Shown here: positions 191 through 7,140 of the stretch, one piece after another
Layout of the letters: each line of letters opens with the position of its first letter
How positions within the stretch are numbered: position 1 is the first letter of the stretch
Assembly: GCA_002825515.1 (NCBI GenBank)
Contig: PJET01000082.1
Span: 1-7,222 of the forward strand
DNA length: 7,222 nt
Source of the DNA: Candidatus Thorarchaeota archaeon MP11T_1
GTDB lineage: Archaea > Asgardarchaeota > Thorarchaeia > Thorarchaeales > Thorarchaeaceae
Direction of reading: 5' to 3'
Position numbers and translations under genes: made by a program
Notes under the pieces: model-generated
Seen by the model: only the letters and a program-made list of their open reading frames with translations
Databases searched by the model: none
What the model was told of the DNA's origin: nothing

Positions 191-571
191 TCACCTGATC
201 CACTGACGTTCAGCGTTTGTAATATCACCAGCATTTAGGAAACCATTACCCAAAGACAGCAGTGCTCTAGCTACCTGTACATCACTTCCAGAAGTTTCTG
301 CCAGTGTCAATGCTTCAGTAGTCCTATCCACACTCCATTCATTATCTCCAAGGCCAACATATGCATGATCAATTCGGAGTAGACATTGAGAGAGTGTTCT
401 CCTCCTATGTTTCTCTAAAATCGGATCGAGTTTGGAAAGCCCCTCCAATATGATCTTTGCTTCAGCACAAAGAGTGAGCTCGCTTTTGAAATCCTGTTCG
501 TACGTACCCCTCCAGATAGCTTGATTTATCAATTCTTCAGCATCTAGGATTGCTCTTTCAGGACTGACCAA
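191..571 (-). CDS. TPR-repeat protein, N-terminal 126 residues, ended by a premature TGA
   Basis: This encodes an alpha-helical protein with tetratricopeptide repeats, which usually act as protein-binding scaffolds; no specific partner can be read from it. One repeat covers roughly residues 59-92 (GLGD turn at 73-76, A87, A91). The next starts near 101 with L107, G108, F111, A120 and W124 at consensus TPR positions 7, 8, 11, 20 and 24. The TGA falls at consensus position 27, normally a small residue, and the repeat resumes with LLLAEE. No ATG fits the N-terminus. The start is TTG at 569-571, preceded 5 bases upstream by GGAAGTGAT, a near-perfect Shine-Dalgarno match, while an in-frame TGA at 578-580 blocks a longer start. 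The gene follows the longin/Roadblock gene by 46 bases on the same strand, so the two are probably cotranscribed. There is no signal peptide or membrane segment. Confidence 0.6.
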   Translation of the reverse strand: MVSPERAILDAEELINQAIWRGTYEQDFKSELTLCAEAKIILEGLSKLDPILEKHRRRTLSQCLLRIDHAYVGLGDNEWSVDRTTEALTLAETSGSDVQVARALLSLGNGFLNAGDITNAERQWIR

Positions 572-617: not shown

Positions 618-1355
618 CTACGACAGGCTCTCGTTCAAAGTAAATGCAATCTCACCAACAGCACTCACAGCATGTAGATTGCTTTCACTCGGTTGAGAAG
701 CAACTACTACTGTCAAAGAGTTAACCTTCAGCATTTGCAGGATATGGTCACCAGCACTGATTGTAGATGGTACAATATCTATAACTGGTTTTATCACGCC
801 TTGTGAGATTTCAACCTGAATTCTAAAAAGATAGAGATCAGGAACATTACCAGCGATAATCAATCCCTCAGAATCGAAAACACCAACAATAGCTATCTCA
901 GGTTGCTTCAGAGTTTTGTTAACAAGATTCTCAATTATCCTCTGAACTTTGGCAGATGGACGATTCAGGTCAAGTGCTACATAGTTGTCTATCAGTGAGT
1001 TCATTTCAACAATATCGCTCATACTGCCATTCCAATTCTCAATCATCTCTCCAAACTGATGGTCTAACGCACGTCCAAGAGATGACATTATGTTCTTCAA
1101 TTGTGATATTGATTGATCTCTGGAAGTCATTGAAACCAGAGCAAAGGAATGAAAGAAAGAATAAGCCCATACACAATCATCCAGCTCCAAAGTATATACC
1201 CTATCAGATGTGGTTCTTGAACTGGATTGCATCATTGTCACAGAATTTCGTACGAGCGATGGGAGTGAGGTTGGGTCAAGAGACACATCATCTTCAATTG
1301 AACGTCCAAACAAGGGGTCTCCGTCGTTTTTGACCATGTATAATTGTCGAATCAT
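618..1355 (-). CDS. Longin-like plus Roadblock/LC7-like two-domain protein
   Basis: This is a 245-residue soluble protein with no signal peptide or transmembrane segment. Residues 1-128 follow the longin order: strands at 2-20 (RQLYMVKNDGDPLFGRSI), a helix at about 31-46, strands at 52-67 and 71-77, then two helices at about 82-128. Residues 130-243 follow the Roadblock/LC7 order: helix 134-149, a strand pair at 153-169 with VFDSEGLIIAGN, a middle helix region, strands around 204-220, and a final helix 225-243. Both folds are platforms that bind or regulate small Ras-like GTPases (MglB, LAMTOR/Ragulator, Mon1-Ccz1) and are abundant in Asgard archaea. A GTPase-control or membrane-identity role is therefore inferred; no GTPase lies in the window. 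ATG at 1353-1355 is preceded by GGGAG at 5 bases. An in-frame TGA at 1377-1379 precludes starts further upstream. A TPR gene follows by 46 bases. The domains are read from residue pattern only; the longin half is the less certain. Confidence 0.6.
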   Translation of the reverse strand: MIRQLYMVKNDGDPLFGRSIEDDVSLDPTSLPSLVRNSVTMMQSSSRTTSDRVYTLELDDCVWAYSFFHSFALVSMTSRDQSISQLKNIMSSLGRALDHQFGEMIENWNGSMSDIVEMNSLIDNYVALDLNRPSAKVQRIIENLVNKTLKQPEIAIVGVFDSEGLIIAGNVPDLYLFRIQVEISQGVIKPVIDIVPSTISAGDHILQMLKVNSLTVVVASQPSESNLHAVSAVGEIAFTLNESLS

Positions 1356-1360
1356 CGTAG

Positions 1361-1365
1361 CTCCC
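1361..1365 (-). promoter_or_regulatory. Ribosome binding site of the longin/Roadblock gene
   Basis: GGGAG on the minus strand lies 5 bases before the ATG at 1353-1355. It selects that start over the second methionine of the protein (residue 7). Confidence 0.45.
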
Positions 1366-1428
1366 GACTCAGTGAATCAGTGCGTGTTTTCCATGTCATA
1401 AGGATTGTTGGTCGATAGTGAGAGGAGC

Positions 1429-1436
1429 AGAATATA
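1429..1436 (+). promoter_or_regulatory. Possible TATA element in the divergent intergenic region
   Basis: The 139-base region 1356-1494 separates divergent genes and must hold promoters for both. GAATATAG at 1429-1436 is the best AT-rich element for the plus-strand winged-helix gene and would place the transcript start near 1460. Its complement CTATATTC could instead serve the minus-strand gene. No clear purine-rich BRE flanks it, so direction and function are uncertain. Confidence 0.25.
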
Positions 1437-1479
1437 GCCGGGGACATTACATTCATATCCTGATTCATGCAGGCTCACT

Positions 1480-1484
1480 GGAGG
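1480..1484 (+). promoter_or_regulatory. Ribosome binding site of the winged-helix gene
   Basis: GGAGG ends 10 bases before the ATG at 1495. The spacing is slightly long, but this is the only strong match nearby and supports that start. Confidence 0.4.
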
Positions 1485-1494
1485 CCTGCGTAGA

Positions 1495-1821
1495 ATGTCA
1501 GATGAAGCACCTAAGAAGAAGAGAAAGAAGAAAGAGCTTCAGAAACGTACTCGCTATGATATCTATGCAGAGTTACTTCGTGTAATCTACATCTGGGGAT
1601 TTTGCCCACTGACACGTGCAGCTCGGTCAACAAACATGCCAGTTGACCGCGCAAAAGAGTCAATTACCGAACTGGTAGGGCGAGGTCTTCTTGAGGAAGA
1701 CGATGATGATGGTATGCGGGTCTACAAAGTAACTGTCCGAGGGCATCAGTATCTTGAATTATACAAGAGGATGGCAGGACTTGTGGGAATTCCAATTCCT
1801 GAACCAATCATTGGGATGTGA
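1495..1821 (+). CDS. Small winged-helix DNA-binding protein (archaeal HTH_45-like)
   Basis: This 108-residue protein is probably a transcription regulator. After a lysine/arginine-rich N-terminal tail (residues 7-13, KKKRKKK) comes a winged helix: helix 1 at 21-33, helix 2 at about 38-46 (PLTRAARST), recognition helix at 50-63 (VDRAKESITELVGRG), and the beta wing at 64-80. The wing carries an acidic tip (EEDDDDG, 67-73) and ends in YKVTVRGHQYLELY, close to the 'yklTekG' ending of the archaeal HTH_45 winged-helix family. A C-terminal helix to about residue 93 could mediate dimerisation. No ligand or metal site is visible, and the target is unknown. The gene stands alone between a divergent gene and the bactofilin-like gene, which has its own TATA box 60 bases past this stop. 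Autoregulation or control of its neighbours is possible but is inference. Confidence 0.7.
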   Translation: MSDEAPKKKRKKKELQKRTRYDIYAELLRVIYIWGFCPLTRAARSTNMPVDRAKESITELVGRGLLEEDDDDGMRVYKVTVRGHQYLELYKRMAGLVGIPIPEPIIGM

Positions 1822-1848
1822 GAACTCAGCATGAGTATTCACAAGATA

Positions 1849-1863
1849 GTCACATCAAGTGAC
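1849..1863 (+). promoter_or_regulatory. Perfect inverted repeat GTCAC-N5-GTGAC
   Basis: GTCAC (1849-1853) and GTGAC (1859-1863) form an exact dyad with a 5-base spacer. It lies 27 bases past the winged-helix stop and 18 bases before the TATA box of the next gene. It could be an operator for a dimeric regulator such as the adjacent winged-helix protein. Alternatively it could be a weak hairpin terminator, since TATTTTGT follows closely. A 5-bp arm can also arise by chance. Confidence 0.3.
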
Positions 1864-1881
1864 CCTATTTTGTGGCCCCGC

Positions 1882-1889
1882 TTTATATA
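1882..1889 (+). promoter_or_regulatory. TATA box of the bactofilin-like gene
   Basis: TTTATATA lies about 48 bases before the ATG at 1937. A transcript start 24-28 bases downstream would fall near 1908-1917, leaving a leader of about 20-30 bases that includes the Shine-Dalgarno site. The upstream flank GGCCCCGC is not a typical purine-rich BRE. Confidence 0.55.
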
Positions 1890-1921
1890 TCAAATTTGAG
1901 GGAAATAAATTAGAAATGCAC

Positions 1922-1928
1922 AAGGTGA
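1922..1928 (+). promoter_or_regulatory. Ribosome binding site of the bactofilin-like gene, inside a six-codon leader ORF
   Basis: AAGGTGA ends 8 bases before ATG 1937, which is good spacing. It sits within a tiny ORF, ATG at 1916-1918 through TAA at 1934-1936 (MHKVKA), whose stop abuts the start codon of the main gene. If the transcript begins before 1916, translation of that mini-ORF would run over this site. Confidence 0.5.
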
Positions 1929-1936
1929 AGGCCTAA

Positions 1937-3253
1937 ATGGCAGATAAATTCGAAATAAAGAATCAGGATTTGGTTGAACTCACCTCTGTTGTGGAAGGTG
2001 ATGTCATTATTCGAAATTGCAGAACGCTGACCAATCCTGAAGGTGATAAAATCGTAATTAGAGGAACACTCCATGTTATTGATGAACTCGAGGTCGATGG
2101 TACACTTGAATGTGGAAGACTCGAGTCCAAATCAAGGGAGTGTATCACTGTCAACGGAGACCTCAAGGTTGAGAGGTCTGTCAGCATTCCTAGAGGTAGT
2201 CTAAGTGTTGAGGGTAATGCTGAGGCACGGGATATTGAAGTTGGTTCGTCACTTGTTATCAGGGGCAATCTAGAATGTGTTTCCGCCAAAGCAGGTGGAT
2301 CAGTCAAGGTCGTAGGTGATGCAAAAGCTCAGAGAATAACAGGCGGCGGTTCAGTCAAGATTGAAGGAAATGTAGAGGTTGATAGAGTGACTGGTGGCGG
2401 TTCAGTCGGTATCTATGGAAATATCAAAGCAGAAGAATTTGATGCAGGTGGTGCAGGAAAGACTGCTACAGGTTACATCCAAAAAGTTTCAGTCGGTGGT
2501 AGTTTCAAGGCAACCGGAGCTATTGAGATTGAAAGTCTTGATGTAGGAGGTACTGCAAAAGTCGGACCAGGTTCCAAAATTAGCTCAGTTGATATCGGAG
2601 GAACTTTCAAGGCTGGAGATGACCTTACGTTTGGTGAAATCGATGTTGGTGGCACCGTGAAAATTGAGGGAAAGGCTTCCGGCCGATCAATCGATGTTGG
2701 TGGCACCGTTAAGACTGAGGGAGACTTGGAAGTCACTGAAGGTTTGGAAGTTGGTGGCACTGTTGCTGTTGGGGGCAATCTAAAGAGTGAAGGGAAAATC
2801 AAAGTCGGTGGAACAGTACGAGTAGAGGGAAGAATAGATACATTTCGTATAATTGTAGGTGGCTCGATTAGAGCCGATTACATTAAGGCCACTGATGGAT
2901 TTCGACTTGGTAAGAGAGCTGAGGTTGATGGATTCGTAGAGTCAAGTGAAATCTTGATTCGTGAAAGAGCAAGAACAGGCTCACTTTATGGTACTGATAT
3001 CCGAATCGAGGAACGCGCTCGAGTTGGTAGTGTTTATGGTGAAACCATTTACATAGAGCGGGATGCTATAGTTGAAGGTGAGGTACTCTATACTGATAGT
3101 CTTGAATCAGAAGATGGAGTAACATTCAGACAAGAACCAAAGAAAGTGGATCAGCTACCACCCCCAAATCCATCTAAGTCCTCACGCACTTCTACGGACC
3201 GTCCTGAACCTCCCGAACCCCCGGAACCTCCTGAACCAATAGATTTGGATTAG
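1937..3253 (+). CDS. Bactofilin-like polymer-forming beta-helix protein with Pro-rich tail
   Basis: This 438-residue protein is built almost wholly of short beta-strand rungs, typical of the bactofilin/polymer-forming cytoskeletal group (DUF583-like). Residues 17-118 are less regular rungs (GDVIIRN, ITVNGDLKVE, SLVIRGNLE). Residues 120-324 hold twelve repeats of 16-18 residues centred on GG[ST]xK. Residues 325-389 hold three RA-containing rungs, two of them near-identical with ERARxGSxYG at 16-residue spacing. Residues 423-434 are a PEP/PPEP tail ending in acidic IDLD. It lacks a signal peptide, membrane helix and catalytic motif. Bactofilins normally have one core of about 110 residues, so this is a much longer helix. 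A cytoplasmic scaffold or filament role is inferred from fold; a surface or adhesin-like role is less likely without a signal peptide. It has its own TATA box and Shine-Dalgarno site and is followed by a terminator hairpin. Confidence 0.7.
   Translation: MADKFEIKNQDLVELTSVVEGDVIIRNCRTLTNPEGDKIVIRGTLHVIDELEVDGTLECGRLESKSRECITVNGDLKVERSVSIPRGSLSVEGNAEARDIEVGSSLVIRGNLECVSAKAGGSVKVVGDAKAQRITGGGSVKIEGNVEVDRVTGGGSVGIYGNIKAEEFDAGGAGKTATGYIQKVSVGGSFKATGAIEIESLDVGGTAKVGPGSKISSVDIGGTFKAGDDLTFGEIDVGGTVKIEGKASGRSIDVGGTVKTEGDLEVTEGLEVGGTVAVGGNLKSEGKIKVGGTVRVEGRIDTFRIIVGGSIRADYIKATDGFRLGKRAEVDGFVESSEILIRERARTGSLYGTDIRIEERARVGSVYGETIYIERDAIVEGEVLYTDSLESEDGVTFRQEPKKVDQLPPPNPSKSSRTSTDRPEPPEPPEPPEPIDLD
2294..2908 (+). 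repeat. Twelve tandem coding repeats of about 51 bp
   Basis: These encode the Gly-Gly rungs of the beta-helix. The first glycine of each pair falls at residues 120, 137, 154, 171, 187, 204, 221, 238, 255, 273, 291 and 308, giving spacings of 16-18 and mostly 17. Most repeats have diverged at DNA level. One pair is nearly fresh: CGATGTTGGTGGCACCGT occurs at 2641-2658 and again at 2692-2709, exactly 51 bases apart, which suggests duplication of whole rungs. Confidence 0.8.
3203..3238 (+). repeat. Nine-base repeat encoding a PEP/PPEP tail
   Basis: Four copies of a CCN-GAA-CCN unit encode residues 423-434 of the bactofilin-like protein (PEPPEPPEPPEP). Proline/glutamate tails of this kind are unstructured and often serve as flexible linkers or docking segments. 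The short unit makes this stretch prone to copy-number change. Confidence 0.7.
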
Positions 3254-3318: not shown

Positions 3319-4107
3319 TTATTTTCGTAGAATGAATATCCTGCGACCTGAGTCTAATGTGAAAGAATTCCTTTCGAAGTCACCATATTCTTCCTCAATC
3401 TGAAGACCTGATTCTTTGATAAGAAACTCTACATCTTGATTGAAAATTAGAGCTGCTTCAGAAACTACATTTATTTCATCAATCGTAACACCTTCAGAGT
3501 CTTCAACAAGATACCTAAGTTCGACGCGCATTATTTTCCTGTCAAAATCAGATGTGATTACTCCAAACCTGGTGACGATTCTGCCATCTGCTAAAGCCGT
3601 TGGTACATCTTGAAATTTGGCATTCTCGTACTGATGTTCTCCAGGAAAGATATCAAGAACGAAGATTCCTTCATCGGTCAGATGTTCTTTCACGCAGAGA
3701 AGCATCGATAGTTGGTCCTCACGTGTCATTAGGTGGCCAAAAGAGTTGGGCACTATCGCAAGAGCGAATTTCCGATCCAGAGAGAACTTGCTCATTGTTC
3801 CTTTTATCAACTCAATTCTACTACAAACTTCTTCTGGAGCGGATTCTAATTTCTCTCGAGCAACTGCAAGCATTGACTCTGATTGTTCGAGTGCAACGAC
3901 TTCAAATCCTTCTTGGGCAAGTGCGAATGTGATTCTACCAGTTCCAGCCGCTAAGTCAAGTACTGGAGACCCTGCTCTTTTTGCACACTCTATGAAGAAG
4001 GGAATATCGGAATTATCAGCGAAGAGGTCATAGAACTCTCCTACGCCGTCATAGCCCAGTGATAGGTTTTCGAATGGATCTTCATCATTTGGTGACAAGA
4101 CTGGCAC
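3319..4107 (-). CDS. Class I SAM-dependent methyltransferase, substrate unknown
   Basis: This 262-residue protein has a Rossmann-type methyltransferase fold. Motif I is VLDLAAGTGRIT (residues 49-60), which binds S-adenosylmethionine. The acidic residue after strand 2 is E74 (VVALEQSESML), motif IV is around 115-126 (ALAIVPNSFGHL), and LTDEGIFVLDIF (143-154) is the strand-5 region. The C-terminal third (about 175-260) is a beta-rich extension (GVITSDFDRKIMRVELRYL) seen in Methyltransf_25-type enzymes, where it shapes the substrate pocket. The substrate cannot be deduced. The start is GTG at 4105-4107, because no ATG fits, and the nearest Shine-Dalgarno-like AAAGG is weak and only 3 bases away. 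The gene begins 13 bases after fwdA ends and is probably the last gene of that operon. A role in modifying a C1 cofactor or the Fwd complex is possible but rests only on location. Confidence 0.8.
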   Translation of the reverse strand: MPVLSPNDEDPFENLSLGYDGVGEFYDLFADNSDIPFFIECAKRAGSPVLDLAAGTGRITFALAQEGFEVVALEQSESMLAVAREKLESAPEEVCSRIELIKGTMSKFSLDRKFALAIVPNSFGHLMTREDQLSMLLCVKEHLTDEGIFVLDIFPGEHQYENAKFQDVPTALADGRIVTRFGVITSDFDRKIMRVELRYLVEDSEGVTIDEINVVSEAALIFNQDVEFLIKESGLQIEEEYGDFERNSFTLDSGRRIFILRK

Positions 4108-4120
4108 TAGCCTTTGATTA

Positions 4121-5863
4121 TTAAGCTGGTACCGAACTCGAATCGACCAAGACTTTCGTTTCTAGATGAGCACGATACCTCTCAGGTACAGGATAGTTGT
4201 AGAAGGAGTGTGAATACCAGTCATTCATCATGACCTCGAGTTCTTTGTTAATGCGTGCCCAAAGATCCTCATTCAATTCTGGATGAAGTGTCCAGACTTT
4301 TCGGTCTTCTGTACCTTTTACCACTCCTTTCTTGGACACCTGCTGGCCTCGAAGGAATGTCAGATAGGAGGTAGAGAAGGTCTTAATGATACGTTCCGGG
4401 TCCTTAGCAAAATCCACCTTTGTGGTGTCAACATCGTAGACGGAAATGTCTGCATCAGCACCAACACCGAGATGACCTTTCACTGAGTCAATACCAAGTA
4501 TTTTCGCAGGAGCGGCTCTTGTAGAGATTGCTATTTCATAGAGGCTCCATTCACGTTCAATGGTCGGGAGAACGGTCCGCTCATGCGCAAATTTGTGCAT
4601 ATCCTCCATCCAGAGGTCGCGTTGTTTCTTACTCATCAACCACGACAAGACAAGGGGATACTTGGTGAATGGTCCAGCATTAGGATGATCGGTACTCATA
4701 ATACAACGCCAGACGTCATCGACACTAAGCGCAAACTCTAGAGGTATTGCCCATTGTACTGAGTTTCCTGCTGCCTTTGGTGAGTATGTGTAGGGGACTA
4801 TTCCAGCACCTCCAGGAAGTTCCACATCTACTGCGATGTTTACCCACTTTCCTCCAGTAAGCTGATAGAGATAGAACTCAAATGGACCATCACCAGTCAT
4901 AGTTGTAGCTGGTCCGAAGGTGATTTGTCCCATATCAGCTGTGAAATGCTTGTTCTTGTTGAAGTACTTCGCAAACTCTAAGCCGCCTGATTGAATATCC
5001 TTCCAATCATGTCCACCACCTTCTACACTACTCAGTGTTTCAAAGGACATGTGTGTAAGATGTGCAATATGCTTGCGGCCACCGTGACCTTTGATATCAC
5101 GGATAGAATCAAGCTGTTGAATTGTAGTTTCAAGGTTGCCAACCCGACCAAGATTATTCGGATGGAAGTGCATCATATGAGGAAGACCTAATGATTCGAC
5201 TGCTTGACACAGCCCTCGTGTGACCTCCTTGGGAGAAATGTCCCAACCGGGAATTTCACCTTCGGGGTCTCTGAGATCTACACCATGAGCCCACGCATAG
5301 GTGCCTCCAGGATTCACAACCTTGACACCAAGACCTCCAACCTTCTGAAGAATCCATGCGATGTATGCTGCTAATCCGCTGGGGTCTCCTTCTTTCACAT
5401 AGTGAAATGTAATCATGCTGTTACAAAACAATGGAAGTAATCCCGAGTCCAGATTGTGCAAATCTTCCATCTCCTCCCAAGACCCTAGAGCTTTGAGAGC
5501 TGGGAGAGCTGGCTCGATGACCGTTGTGTATCCCATAGCCGAATATCGATACCCGATGACATACGAGTTGGGCATAGTATAACCAACTCCTGACCGAGTA
5601 TGCTTTGTTTTTGGAACTGGGTCTTTCCGATGGTCTTCAGGGCAGATTGACCTTCCAACACCTACTTTGGACCCCACAATGTGAGAGTGCATATCGACCC
5701 CTCCAGCCATCACAAGACGGCCCTTGAGGTCTATTTTCTTAGCAGACCCTTCGACGCTTTCGACAATCTTTCCATCTGAGATGCAGATGTCCTTGATTTC
5801 TCCATCGATGCCATTCATTGGATCGTAGATCCGACCGTTTGTGAGAATTGTCTGCTTGCTCAT
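4121..5863 (-). CDS. fwdA: Formylmethanofuran dehydrogenase subunit A
   Basis: This 580-residue amidohydrolase-fold subunit is close to the usual family length of about 570. It condenses formate, produced by FwdB, with methanofuran to give formylmethanofuran, or hydrolyses it in reverse, at a binuclear zinc site in the cytoplasmic complex. The visible metal residues are H59 and H61 in DMHSH, K181 in GVKVVNPGG (the carboxylated-lysine position), H232 and H234 in MHFHPNN, H268 and H271 in AHLTHMSF, and D392 in STDHPN (the catalytic aspartate position). The N- and C-terminal beta parts of the amidohydrolase composite domain are present (LTNGRIYDP near residue 7; GADADISVYDVD near 468). Its ATG overlaps the fwdB stop by four bases (ATGA), with a strong AAGGAGGT site 7 bases upstream, so the two are translationally coupled. 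All expected catalytic residues are kept, so it should be active. Confidence 0.96.
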   Translation of the reverse strand: MSKQTILTNGRIYDPMNGIDGEIKDICISDGKIVESVEGSAKKIDLKGRLVMAGGVDMHSHIVGSKVGVGRSICPEDHRKDPVPKTKHTRSGVGYTMPNSYVIGYRYSAMGYTTVIEPALPALKALGSWEEMEDLHNLDSGLLPLFCNSMITFHYVKEGDPSGLAAYIAWILQKVGGLGVKVVNPGGTYAWAHGVDLRDPEGEIPGWDISPKEVTRGLCQAVESLGLPHMMHFHPNNLGRVGNLETTIQQLDSIRDIKGHGGRKHIAHLTHMSFETLSSVEGGGHDWKDIQSGGLEFAKYFNKNKHFTADMGQITFGPATTMTGDGPFEFYLYQLTGGKWVNIAVDVELPGGAGIVPYTYSPKAAGNSVQWAIPLEFALSVDDVWRCIMSTDHPNAGPFTKYPLVLSWLMSKKQRDLWMEDMHKFAHERTVLPTIEREWSLYEIAISTRAAPAKILGIDSVKGHLGVGADADISVYDVDTTKVDFAKDPERIIKTFSTSYLTFLRGQQVSKKGVVKGTEDRKVWTLHPELNEDLWARINKELEVMMNDWYSHSFYNYPVPERYRAHLETKVLVDSSSVPA

Positions 5864-7140
5864 TTCTTCAACCTCCTTAATTCATCGTATATCATTCTCA
5901 GGACATCTCTGTCTGGAAGTATACCCTCTGGGGGATCAACAACTTTCTTGAGATATAATGGGAGTCCATCCATTCGAGTAGCTGCTCCATCAGATTCGAT
6001 GCCTGCGATTGCAGTCTGAATATTGACCTCAGCTAGAAGCGATGTCATGTTGCGTTTGGGATCTATGTTGATTACTGGAATGCTCGCTAAGTGCTTCACT
6101 GCTTCCTTCGGAAAGTGCGCAGCTGGGTCAGCAGCGATGTTGAGAACTGCATCAGCCTCACCCCTCACAAGCATGTCAACTGCTGTGAATTCACCTGGTT
6201 GATACCTAGGATAGCCGCGAGCGTAGTCTACAGCATATGGATAGCCAGTCTGCCATGTAGATGTTTTGTTTGCACCTGCTACATTGTAGTGTCCACGCAT
6301 GGGCAACATGCTCCACTTTGTGAAGTGGTTCATATCTTGAATCAACCTGATTGCTGCATCGATATTTCTGTGACGTCCCTTGGATTGAGTTAGACCCAAA
6401 CCAAAGAAGAGGGTTCCATATTTGGCATTCTTCATGGTTTCCACGAGTTCAGTGAGCTCGTCGATCGAGAGTCCACCAACCTCATCCACTTCTAGAATCT
6501 TGTCACGTGCAATTGCACGAAGTGCAGATATGACCTCTAGATCGGATCCAGGTTTGATCTTGACAAATTTGTCAGCCACGCCAGCGCTAATGGTTTTTCT
6601 AACATCGACAACCCAGATTTTTCGATCTTTCTTTCCGTCTTTGATGTAAAGACCATCAGCTCTCGTGTAACGACTCATATGTCGAGGATGTGCAAACTGT
6701 GGGTTTGAGCCCCAGTAGATGACAAGATCTGCTCTATGCCGGGTTTCAGCGAGAGCTGCAATTGCTTCCCCAGATTCCTGTCCACCCAAGATGGTGGGTC
6801 CATGACAAACAGATGATGTGTTGTCAACAACTCCACCCGCTTCCTCTGCTATCTTGTAGGCTTCTCTGTGGGCATCATTTTCCGTTGAGCTTAGACCATA
6901 AACCAATAGTCGCTTGGAATTAGCAATTATCTCTGCTGCTCTTTTGACTAGATCCTCTAAGGGCGCTTTCATTTCAAGTCGATCATCATGATGATTCAGA
7001 AATTTTGCCTTACTAATCGAACAGCCATTCTTGTTGTCGGTTATCTGAGTACCTTCTATATCAATCATGATATCATCACAAAGGCAGCCACAGAAGGGAC
7101 CCACAATATTCTCTTTCATCCCAGAATCTTCAGTCATCAT
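5860..7140 (-). CDS. fwdB: Formylmethanofuran dehydrogenase subunit B (tungsten/molybdenum-pterin subunit)
   Basis: This 426-residue subunit, close to the usual length of about 430, belongs to the molybdopterin oxidoreductase fold. It reduces CO2 to formate at a bis-pterin tungsten or molybdenum centre. C112 in NTSSVCHGP is at the metal-ligand position, cysteine here rather than the selenocysteine of some methanogens. Pterin-binding stretches include VIYWGSNPQFAHPRH (140-154), VVDVRKT (177-183), and GHYNVAGANK (283-292). The N-terminal iron-sulfur motif reads GPFCGCLCDDI (14-24) with a fourth cysteine at C40. The family usually has CPFCGxLCDD, so the first cysteine is glycine here, while an extra cysteine sits at C19. 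Gene order is upstream gene, fwdB, fwdA, with 4-base overlaps on both sides. ATG at 7138-7140 is preceded by GGAG at 5 bases; a second ATG follows immediately. FwdC, FwdF and FwdG are not in this window. Confidence 0.95.
   Translation of the reverse strand: MMTEDSGMKENIVGPFCGCLCDDIMIDIEGTQITDNKNGCSISKAKFLNHHDDRLEMKAPLEDLVKRAAEIIANSKRLLVYGLSSTENDAHREAYKIAEEAGGVVDNTSSVCHGPTILGGQESGEAIAALAETRHRADLVIYWGSNPQFAHPRHMSRYTRADGLYIKDGKKDRKIWVVDVRKTISAGVADKFVKIKPGSDLEVISALRAIARDKILEVDEVGGLSIDELTELVETMKNAKYGTLFFGLGLTQSKGRHRNIDAAIRLIQDMNHFTKWSMLPMRGHYNVAGANKTSTWQTGYPYAVDYARGYPRYQPGEFTAVDMLVRGEADAVLNIAADPAAHFPKEAVKHLASIPVINIDPKRNMTSLLAEVNIQTAIAGIESDGAATRMDGLPLYLKKVVDPPEGILPDRDVLRMIYDELRRLKK
5871..5878 (-). 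promoter_or_regulatory. Strong ribosome binding site of fwdA inside the fwdB end
   Basis: AAGGAGGT on the minus strand lies 7 bases before the fwdA ATG and within the last codons of fwdB. It fixes the fwdA start at 5863 and allows initiation coupled to termination at the ATGA overlap. Confidence 0.75.

Follow-up and report, generated by a model that had tools for sequence, protein, structure and literature searches.

A conserved longin-Roadblock two-domain protein of Asgard archaea and its possible role as a small-GTPase platform

In eukaryotes, the related longin and Roadblock folds serve repeatedly as platforms for GTPases, both in nutrient signalling and in the control of membrane-traffic switches, and the locus described here raises the question whether the two folds are joined in a single archaeal chain and what such a chain would do. 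The window, that is, the whole stretch of DNA analysed, consists of 7,222 nucleotides of contig PJET01000082.1 from Candidatus Thorarchaeota archaeon MP11T_1. On its minus strand, from 1355 to 618, there is an open reading frame of 245 codons, as the initial annotation had described it. The best explanation of the data discussed below is that its product, apparently soluble, consists of a longin and a Roadblock-type domain and probably acts as a platform for a small GTPase, a role that is proposed by analogy. The gene and the parts of its product are as follows.

618..1355, minus strand: gene of the longin-Roadblock protein, 245 amino acids plus stop, an open reading frame with an ATG start and 113 homologues
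978..1355, minus strand: predicted longin domain, residues 1-126 (β1β2 α1 β3β4β5 α2 α3)
954..977, minus strand: linker, residues 127-134, without helix or strand in the model
621..953, minus strand: predicted Roadblock-type domain, residues 135-245 (α1 β1β2 α2 β3β4β5 α3)

The reading of the protein as a longin N-terminal half joined to a Roadblock C-terminal half is supported by the structural model, by the structure search and by sequence profiles of the N-terminal half. The model is confident and shows both predicted topologies, ββαβββαα as in longins in the N-terminal half and αββαβββα as in Roadblock domains in residues 135-244. The longin half stands on sequence as well as on structure. 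The Pfam family Fuz_longin_1 (PF19036) matches, at E ≤ 10, 61 of the 87 members of alignment A1 (the window protein and 86 of its 113 homologues, the other 27 having been left out mostly as fragments and near-copies and in some cases without a set rule), with a best value of 1.8e-6; the window protein alone gives 0.027, below the cut-off. Moreover, in hhalign comparisons the N-terminal halves of the window protein and its close relatives, called Thor-type hereafter, match 16 Asgard single-domain longins (taken from 19 loci fetched) at 85.5%, compared with 0.3% for the reversed control. At E ≤ 0.001, PF19036 itself finds a match in 170 of 227 Asgard genomes, in 104 of them above the cut-off, and in none of 14 control genomes. 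Many of these Asgard matches fall on single-domain longins, so Fuz_longin_1 was rejected as proof of kinship with Mon1 and FUZ; of the ten single-domain longins checked against PF19036, nine had been chosen by it and so give no independent count. The Roadblock half of the Thor-type lineage is predicted mainly from structure.

A match of the whole protein to an unrelated family would have spoken against a fusion, and none was found in Pfam, NCBIfam or PDB searches: the Pfam and NCBIfam matches are weak (best 0.027 for Fuz_longin_1 and 0.023 for NusA), and PDB sequence searches gave nothing convincing (best 0.19 for the window protein and 0.075 for A1). The corresponding alignment of the Loki-type relatives, which carry the same two-domain architecture in other Asgard lineages, gave a TRAPP 23-kDa subunit (0.016) as its best PDB sequence match, and BET5 (0.2) and MglB (1.1) lower in the list; these matches lie in the halves where they would be expected, but they are weak. 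The best whole-chain Foldseek matches of the window protein are tri-longin RabGEF chains of the Mon1/Fuzzy type, with a root-mean-square deviation (rmsd) of about 10 Å over both domains; these chains carry tandem longin-type domains, so the rank alone is no evidence of specific kinship and was rejected as such. For the Loki-type model, three of the rows listed gave an rmsd of 4.9-5.2 Å and three others 15.5-16.1 Å, and the closer matches, which span chain residues 8-418, may align the third domain of the RabGEF rather than its second, LD2. An internal duplication was also rejected, because the two Thor-type halves match each other at most at 1.4% by profile.

The protein is not peculiar to one contig. 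A search of 5.8 billion proteins gave the 113 homologues at E ≤ 1e-3, and those with an organism name are all labelled Thorarchaeota or Promethearchaeota; likewise, the six loci found in GTDB contigs are every one titled Thorarchaeota. The A1 profile matches 91 of the 227 genomes of the phylum at E ≤ 0.01, in full length in 43 and otherwise partially, mostly inside the N-terminal half. Within the class, 43 of 47 genomes have the gene, in one copy each (E ≤ 1e-20); the four that lack it include an assembly of 0.6 Mb. Viral contigs were scanned twice without yielding a relative, and a viral origin was rejected on that ground. Conservation is about equal in the two halves (mean scores 0.547 and 0.565, from the 49 of 117 sequences that share less than 80% identity), in keeping with two functional domains. 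The longin-Roadblock architecture is widespread in Asgard archaea, beyond one contig and beyond chance. Longin homologues are named for Loki and Odin lineages, and the folds are said to occur in all Asgard phyla, in the accessible text of PMC10933270; to these reports the Thor-type class contributes a specific example, a longin protein present in nearly all of its genomes.

The Loki-type relatives have clearer sequence links to both domain families; their C-terminal half matches Asgard Roadblocks at 94.8-97.9% by hhalign. Thor-type C-terminal halves match those of the Loki type at 7.5-18%, the reversed control reaching up to 2.1%. It is a possibility of some weight, though not the favoured one, that the Thor-type and Loki-type fusions arose independently and that the architecture is convergent: in the tree of the longin half, the Thor-type rows lie on a long branch (2.34) apart from the Loki-type clade. 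That placement is weak, however, since a tree uniting the Thor and Loki types is acceptable in the approximately unbiased test (p-AU 0.304) and one uniting the Thor type with single-domain longins equally so (0.298), so the tree was set aside as a guide to the Thor-type position; besides, the Thor-type and Loki-type profiles align collinearly through the fusion point.

How such a protein might work can be outlined from the two domain families. In the manner of longins and Roadblocks, each domain would use its central helix and edge strand to pair with itself or with a partner and so give a dimer made of one longin layer and one Roadblock layer. One layer may then offer a groove to a small Ras-like GTPase (Arf-, Rag- or Rab-like) and aid nucleotide exchange or hydrolysis, while the other would attach the complex to a membrane-bound partner or to a further protein; where the genome has the linked TPR gene described below, its product is a candidate partner. 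Both the dimerisation through central helices and the GTPase binding on one layer are suggested by analogy. Relatives of the longin half fused to GTPases do occur, namely a longin-Arf (L038) and a longin-Ras (L043) protein. In addition, 6 of 16 Loki-type loci have a gene of the Arf or Ras family no more than 4 kb away. In group I, four of nine loci encode, 3.5-3.7 kb downstream, a protein of about 298 residues that contains an Arf domain (5.7e-37 to 6e-33), and in group III a Ras-family gene (1.1e-35 and 1.8e-36) lies about 3.2 kb upstream in both loci. These genes encode natural candidate partners and are a lead, not a proof.

L141 663-1562, L144 9400-10296, L145 235-1131 and L146 9423-10319: Arf-family genes near Loki-type genes
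L151 85-600 and L152 8619-9143: Ras-family genes near Loki-type genes

By eye, the second half of the Arf proteins of about 298 residues looks longin-like.

The surroundings of the Thor-type gene are of another kind. The neighbouring features in the window are listed below.

191..571, minus strand: first part of a downstream TPR-repeat gene, with an in-frame stop at 191-193
1495..1821, plus strand: divergent winged-helix gene (HTH_45, Pfam 8.4e-7)
1937..3253, plus strand: gene of a bactofilin-like protein beyond the winged-helix gene (Pfam Bactofilin 6.7e-14)
3319-4107, minus strand: methyltransferase gene
4121-5863 and 5860-7140, minus strand: formylmethanofuran dehydrogenase subunits A and B

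The genes on either side of the longin-Roadblock gene keep a very stable order (window 618-3253, L001-L036, L127-L138). In a survey of 33 of the 43 Thor-type genomes with the gene (48 loci counting duplicates), all 33 have the divergent winged-helix gene at a distance of 123-188 bases, and 32 have the bactofilin-like gene beyond it, two of these with 1.0-1.2 kb in between (31 were counted again and one was found in the longer locus L131; the 33rd locus begins where its contig does). On the same strand, the queried gene that comes first downstream encodes a TPR protein in 12 genomes, an FMN reductase in 17 and CobO in 4, and it stays 45-185 bases away though the longin-Roadblock protein itself falls to 31% identity. 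Furthermore, a methylmalonyl-CoA mutase gene is found downstream in all 12 loci with long flanks (L127-L138). In L001, the SMTZ1-45 locus with its longin-Roadblock orthologue at 10001-10738, Pfam confirmed FMN_red, CobO (2.9e-55) and the mutase (4.9e-224), whereas TPR_12 was just below the cut-off.

Several results weigh against a GTPase-binding longin-Roadblock protein. The metabolic operon context just described (FMN reductase, CobO and methylmalonyl-CoA mutase) is the strongest counter-signal. GTPase genes are nearly absent from the 13 Thor-type loci (13-21 kb): a motif scan found none, and the profile scan that followed found a single Ras-like open reading frame at the edge of L133, partial and Arf-like (3.2e-4, just below the cut-off) and some 6 kb from the gene, besides a translation factor in L128. 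Reliance on the motif scan alone was given up, as it had missed two Ras genes that the profile scan detected. The GTPase neighbours of the Loki type may be due to chance or to one event, because GTPases are abundant and the loci are interrelated; in MK-D1, 74 related sequences are counted in the accessible text of PMC10933270, and Asgard genomes hold dozens of small GTPases. As to the domains, the single-chain model has a predicted template modelling score (pTM) of 0.65, so that the packing of the two domains is uncertain. Separate profile searches of the halves bore out the longin assignment, whereas Thor-type C-terminal halves match 24 Asgard Roadblocks (from 30 loci) at only 2.8%; Robl_LC7 is absent from the Pfam list for the 87 members of A1, dCache_1 matches 17 of them (best 1.5e-4), and bacteriophytochromes appear in weaker Foldseek rows. 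Besides, some longin and Roadblock domains have no GTPase partner.

There is a rival reading, judged rather unlikely, in which the same two folds bind no GTPase and serve as a scaffold or small-molecule sensor for a linked redox or B12-type cluster. The TPR, FMN reductase or CobO gene downstream in 33 of 33 genomes and the mutase gene in 12 of 12 long-flank loci are as this reading would have them, and the wider PAS/GAF-like fold group, in which longins are placed, has ligand-binding domains among its members (PMC3521125 and PMC4917890, as far as their accessible text goes). Many domains of that group interact with GTPases, according to the same part of PMC4917890. Against the rival reading, the Loki-type relatives live in other neighbourhoods, with the Arf- and Ras-family genes within 4 kb in 6 of 16 loci; the fusions of longin-half relatives to GTPases also speak for the GTPase platform.

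That the C-terminal half is a profilin-like domain instead of a Roadblock is very improbable: its VIA-align Z of 11.7 with MglB is tied with those of the profilin folds 4qwo_A (11.6) and 4x1m (10.9), and Asgard archaea do possess profilins (accessible text of PMC10933270), but in the model there are five strands and the central helix runs unbroken over 13 residues, where, in the same text, a three-strand motif replaces the second half of that helix in profilin, the Loki-type C-terminal half matches Asgard Roadblocks by sequence, the 50 structure matches listed for it include MglB, LAMTOR and Asgard Roadblocks and not a single profilin (absence from the VIA structure-match lists does not exclude a family), and Profilin is absent from the 22 Pfam families of the 87 A1 members.

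The closest known systems include the tri-longin RabGEFs. In the accessible text of PMC8833172, Mon1 and Ccz1 are described as having a canonical longin LD1, a Roadblock-type LD2 and a lamtor-type LD3 that is completed by helix αX from the LD1-LD2 linker, the αX-βX motif being unique to and defining for these proteins. The Asgard protein has the same LD1-LD2 order in one chain. However, it ends at residue 245 with the second domain and so has no lamtor-type third domain, the model contains no αX-βX element (the Loki-type relative has a short helix at linker residues 127-132 and no strand), the predicted packing differs, and the protein is not known to have a partner subunit or exchange activity. 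It is therefore not a tri-longin RabGEF. Of the initial suggestion of an ancestor-type arrangement, the domain order stands, while ancestry itself does not follow, for the chain lacks the linker element and a third domain and is predicted to pack differently. A conserved single-copy archaeal protein in LD1-LD2 order is a concrete candidate for testing the origin of multi-longin RabGEFs. As a tentative and testable hypothesis, rather unlikely in its entirety, the LD1-LD2 core of the tri-longin RabGEFs would survive in prokaryotes as the Asgard longin-Roadblock proteins, a homodimer pairing longin with longin and Roadblock with Roadblock would have regulated an Arf- or Rag-like GTPase in the Asgard ancestor, and early eukaryotes would have duplicated the chain into two partners that gained the third domain and the αX-βX linker. 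The Thor-type and Loki-type proteins are now defined proteins to pair with Asgard GTPases and to compare with Mon1 and Fuzzy.

Other known Asgard proteins share the domains in different arrangements. In the accessible part of PMC10933270, MK-D1 GTPases are fused to a longin, to a Roadblock or placed between both, and a Heimdall N-terminal longin with TRAPPC3 is reported; in that of PMC4917890, Loki longins and Roadblocks are fused to GTPases. Unlike the MK-D1 fusions, the window protein has no GTPase domain: the two domains fill the model, and no GTPase family is in its Pfam and NCBIfam lists. A GTPase-free longin-Roadblock protein was not found described in the literature searched, which covered few subscription papers. 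MglB, the Roadblock regulator of MglA, is a single Roadblock domain, whereas the C-terminal half here has no detectable Robl_LC7 match. Asgard single-domain longins and Roadblocks (for example the Thor Roadblock 7f8m and MK-D1 Roadblocks) have the same folds, and the longins share profile similarity with the longin half, but in the window protein a single chain holds both domains, an arrangement that is conserved between lineages.

Some minor observations concern the same window and domains. The TPR frame continues past its single stop (191-193, minus strand) to base 2, and frame 2-571 resembles the L001 TPR protein on both sides of that stop (85% over 190 residues); sequencing error, decay and true truncation are indistinguishable here. 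The methyltransferase at 3319-4107 has a strong, though sub-cut-off, match to a daptide-type methyltransferase of ribosomally synthesized and post-translationally modified peptides (RiPP) (1.8e-35, 122.6 bits against 175). The bactofilin-like protein (1937-3253) contains many repeated GG-type units and lies near the gene of a Roadblock-containing protein; the bactofilins of Myxococcus, together with a small GTPase, contribute to the positioning of polarity proteins. Another 245-residue Asgard protein, found through Robl_LC7 (L126 265-1002), looks by eye like a tandem of two Roadblock-type units and not like a longin-Roadblock chain. Finally, some long proteins whose hydrophobic stretches suggest a membrane anchor have a longin-type domain at their C-terminal end or close to it (L040 24-2186, L042 1-1839, L045 976-2175 and L049 1820-4093, all by eye), and in several Asgard genomes a longin domain is followed by a region that appears winged-helix-like by eye (L057-L062, L046 and L050).
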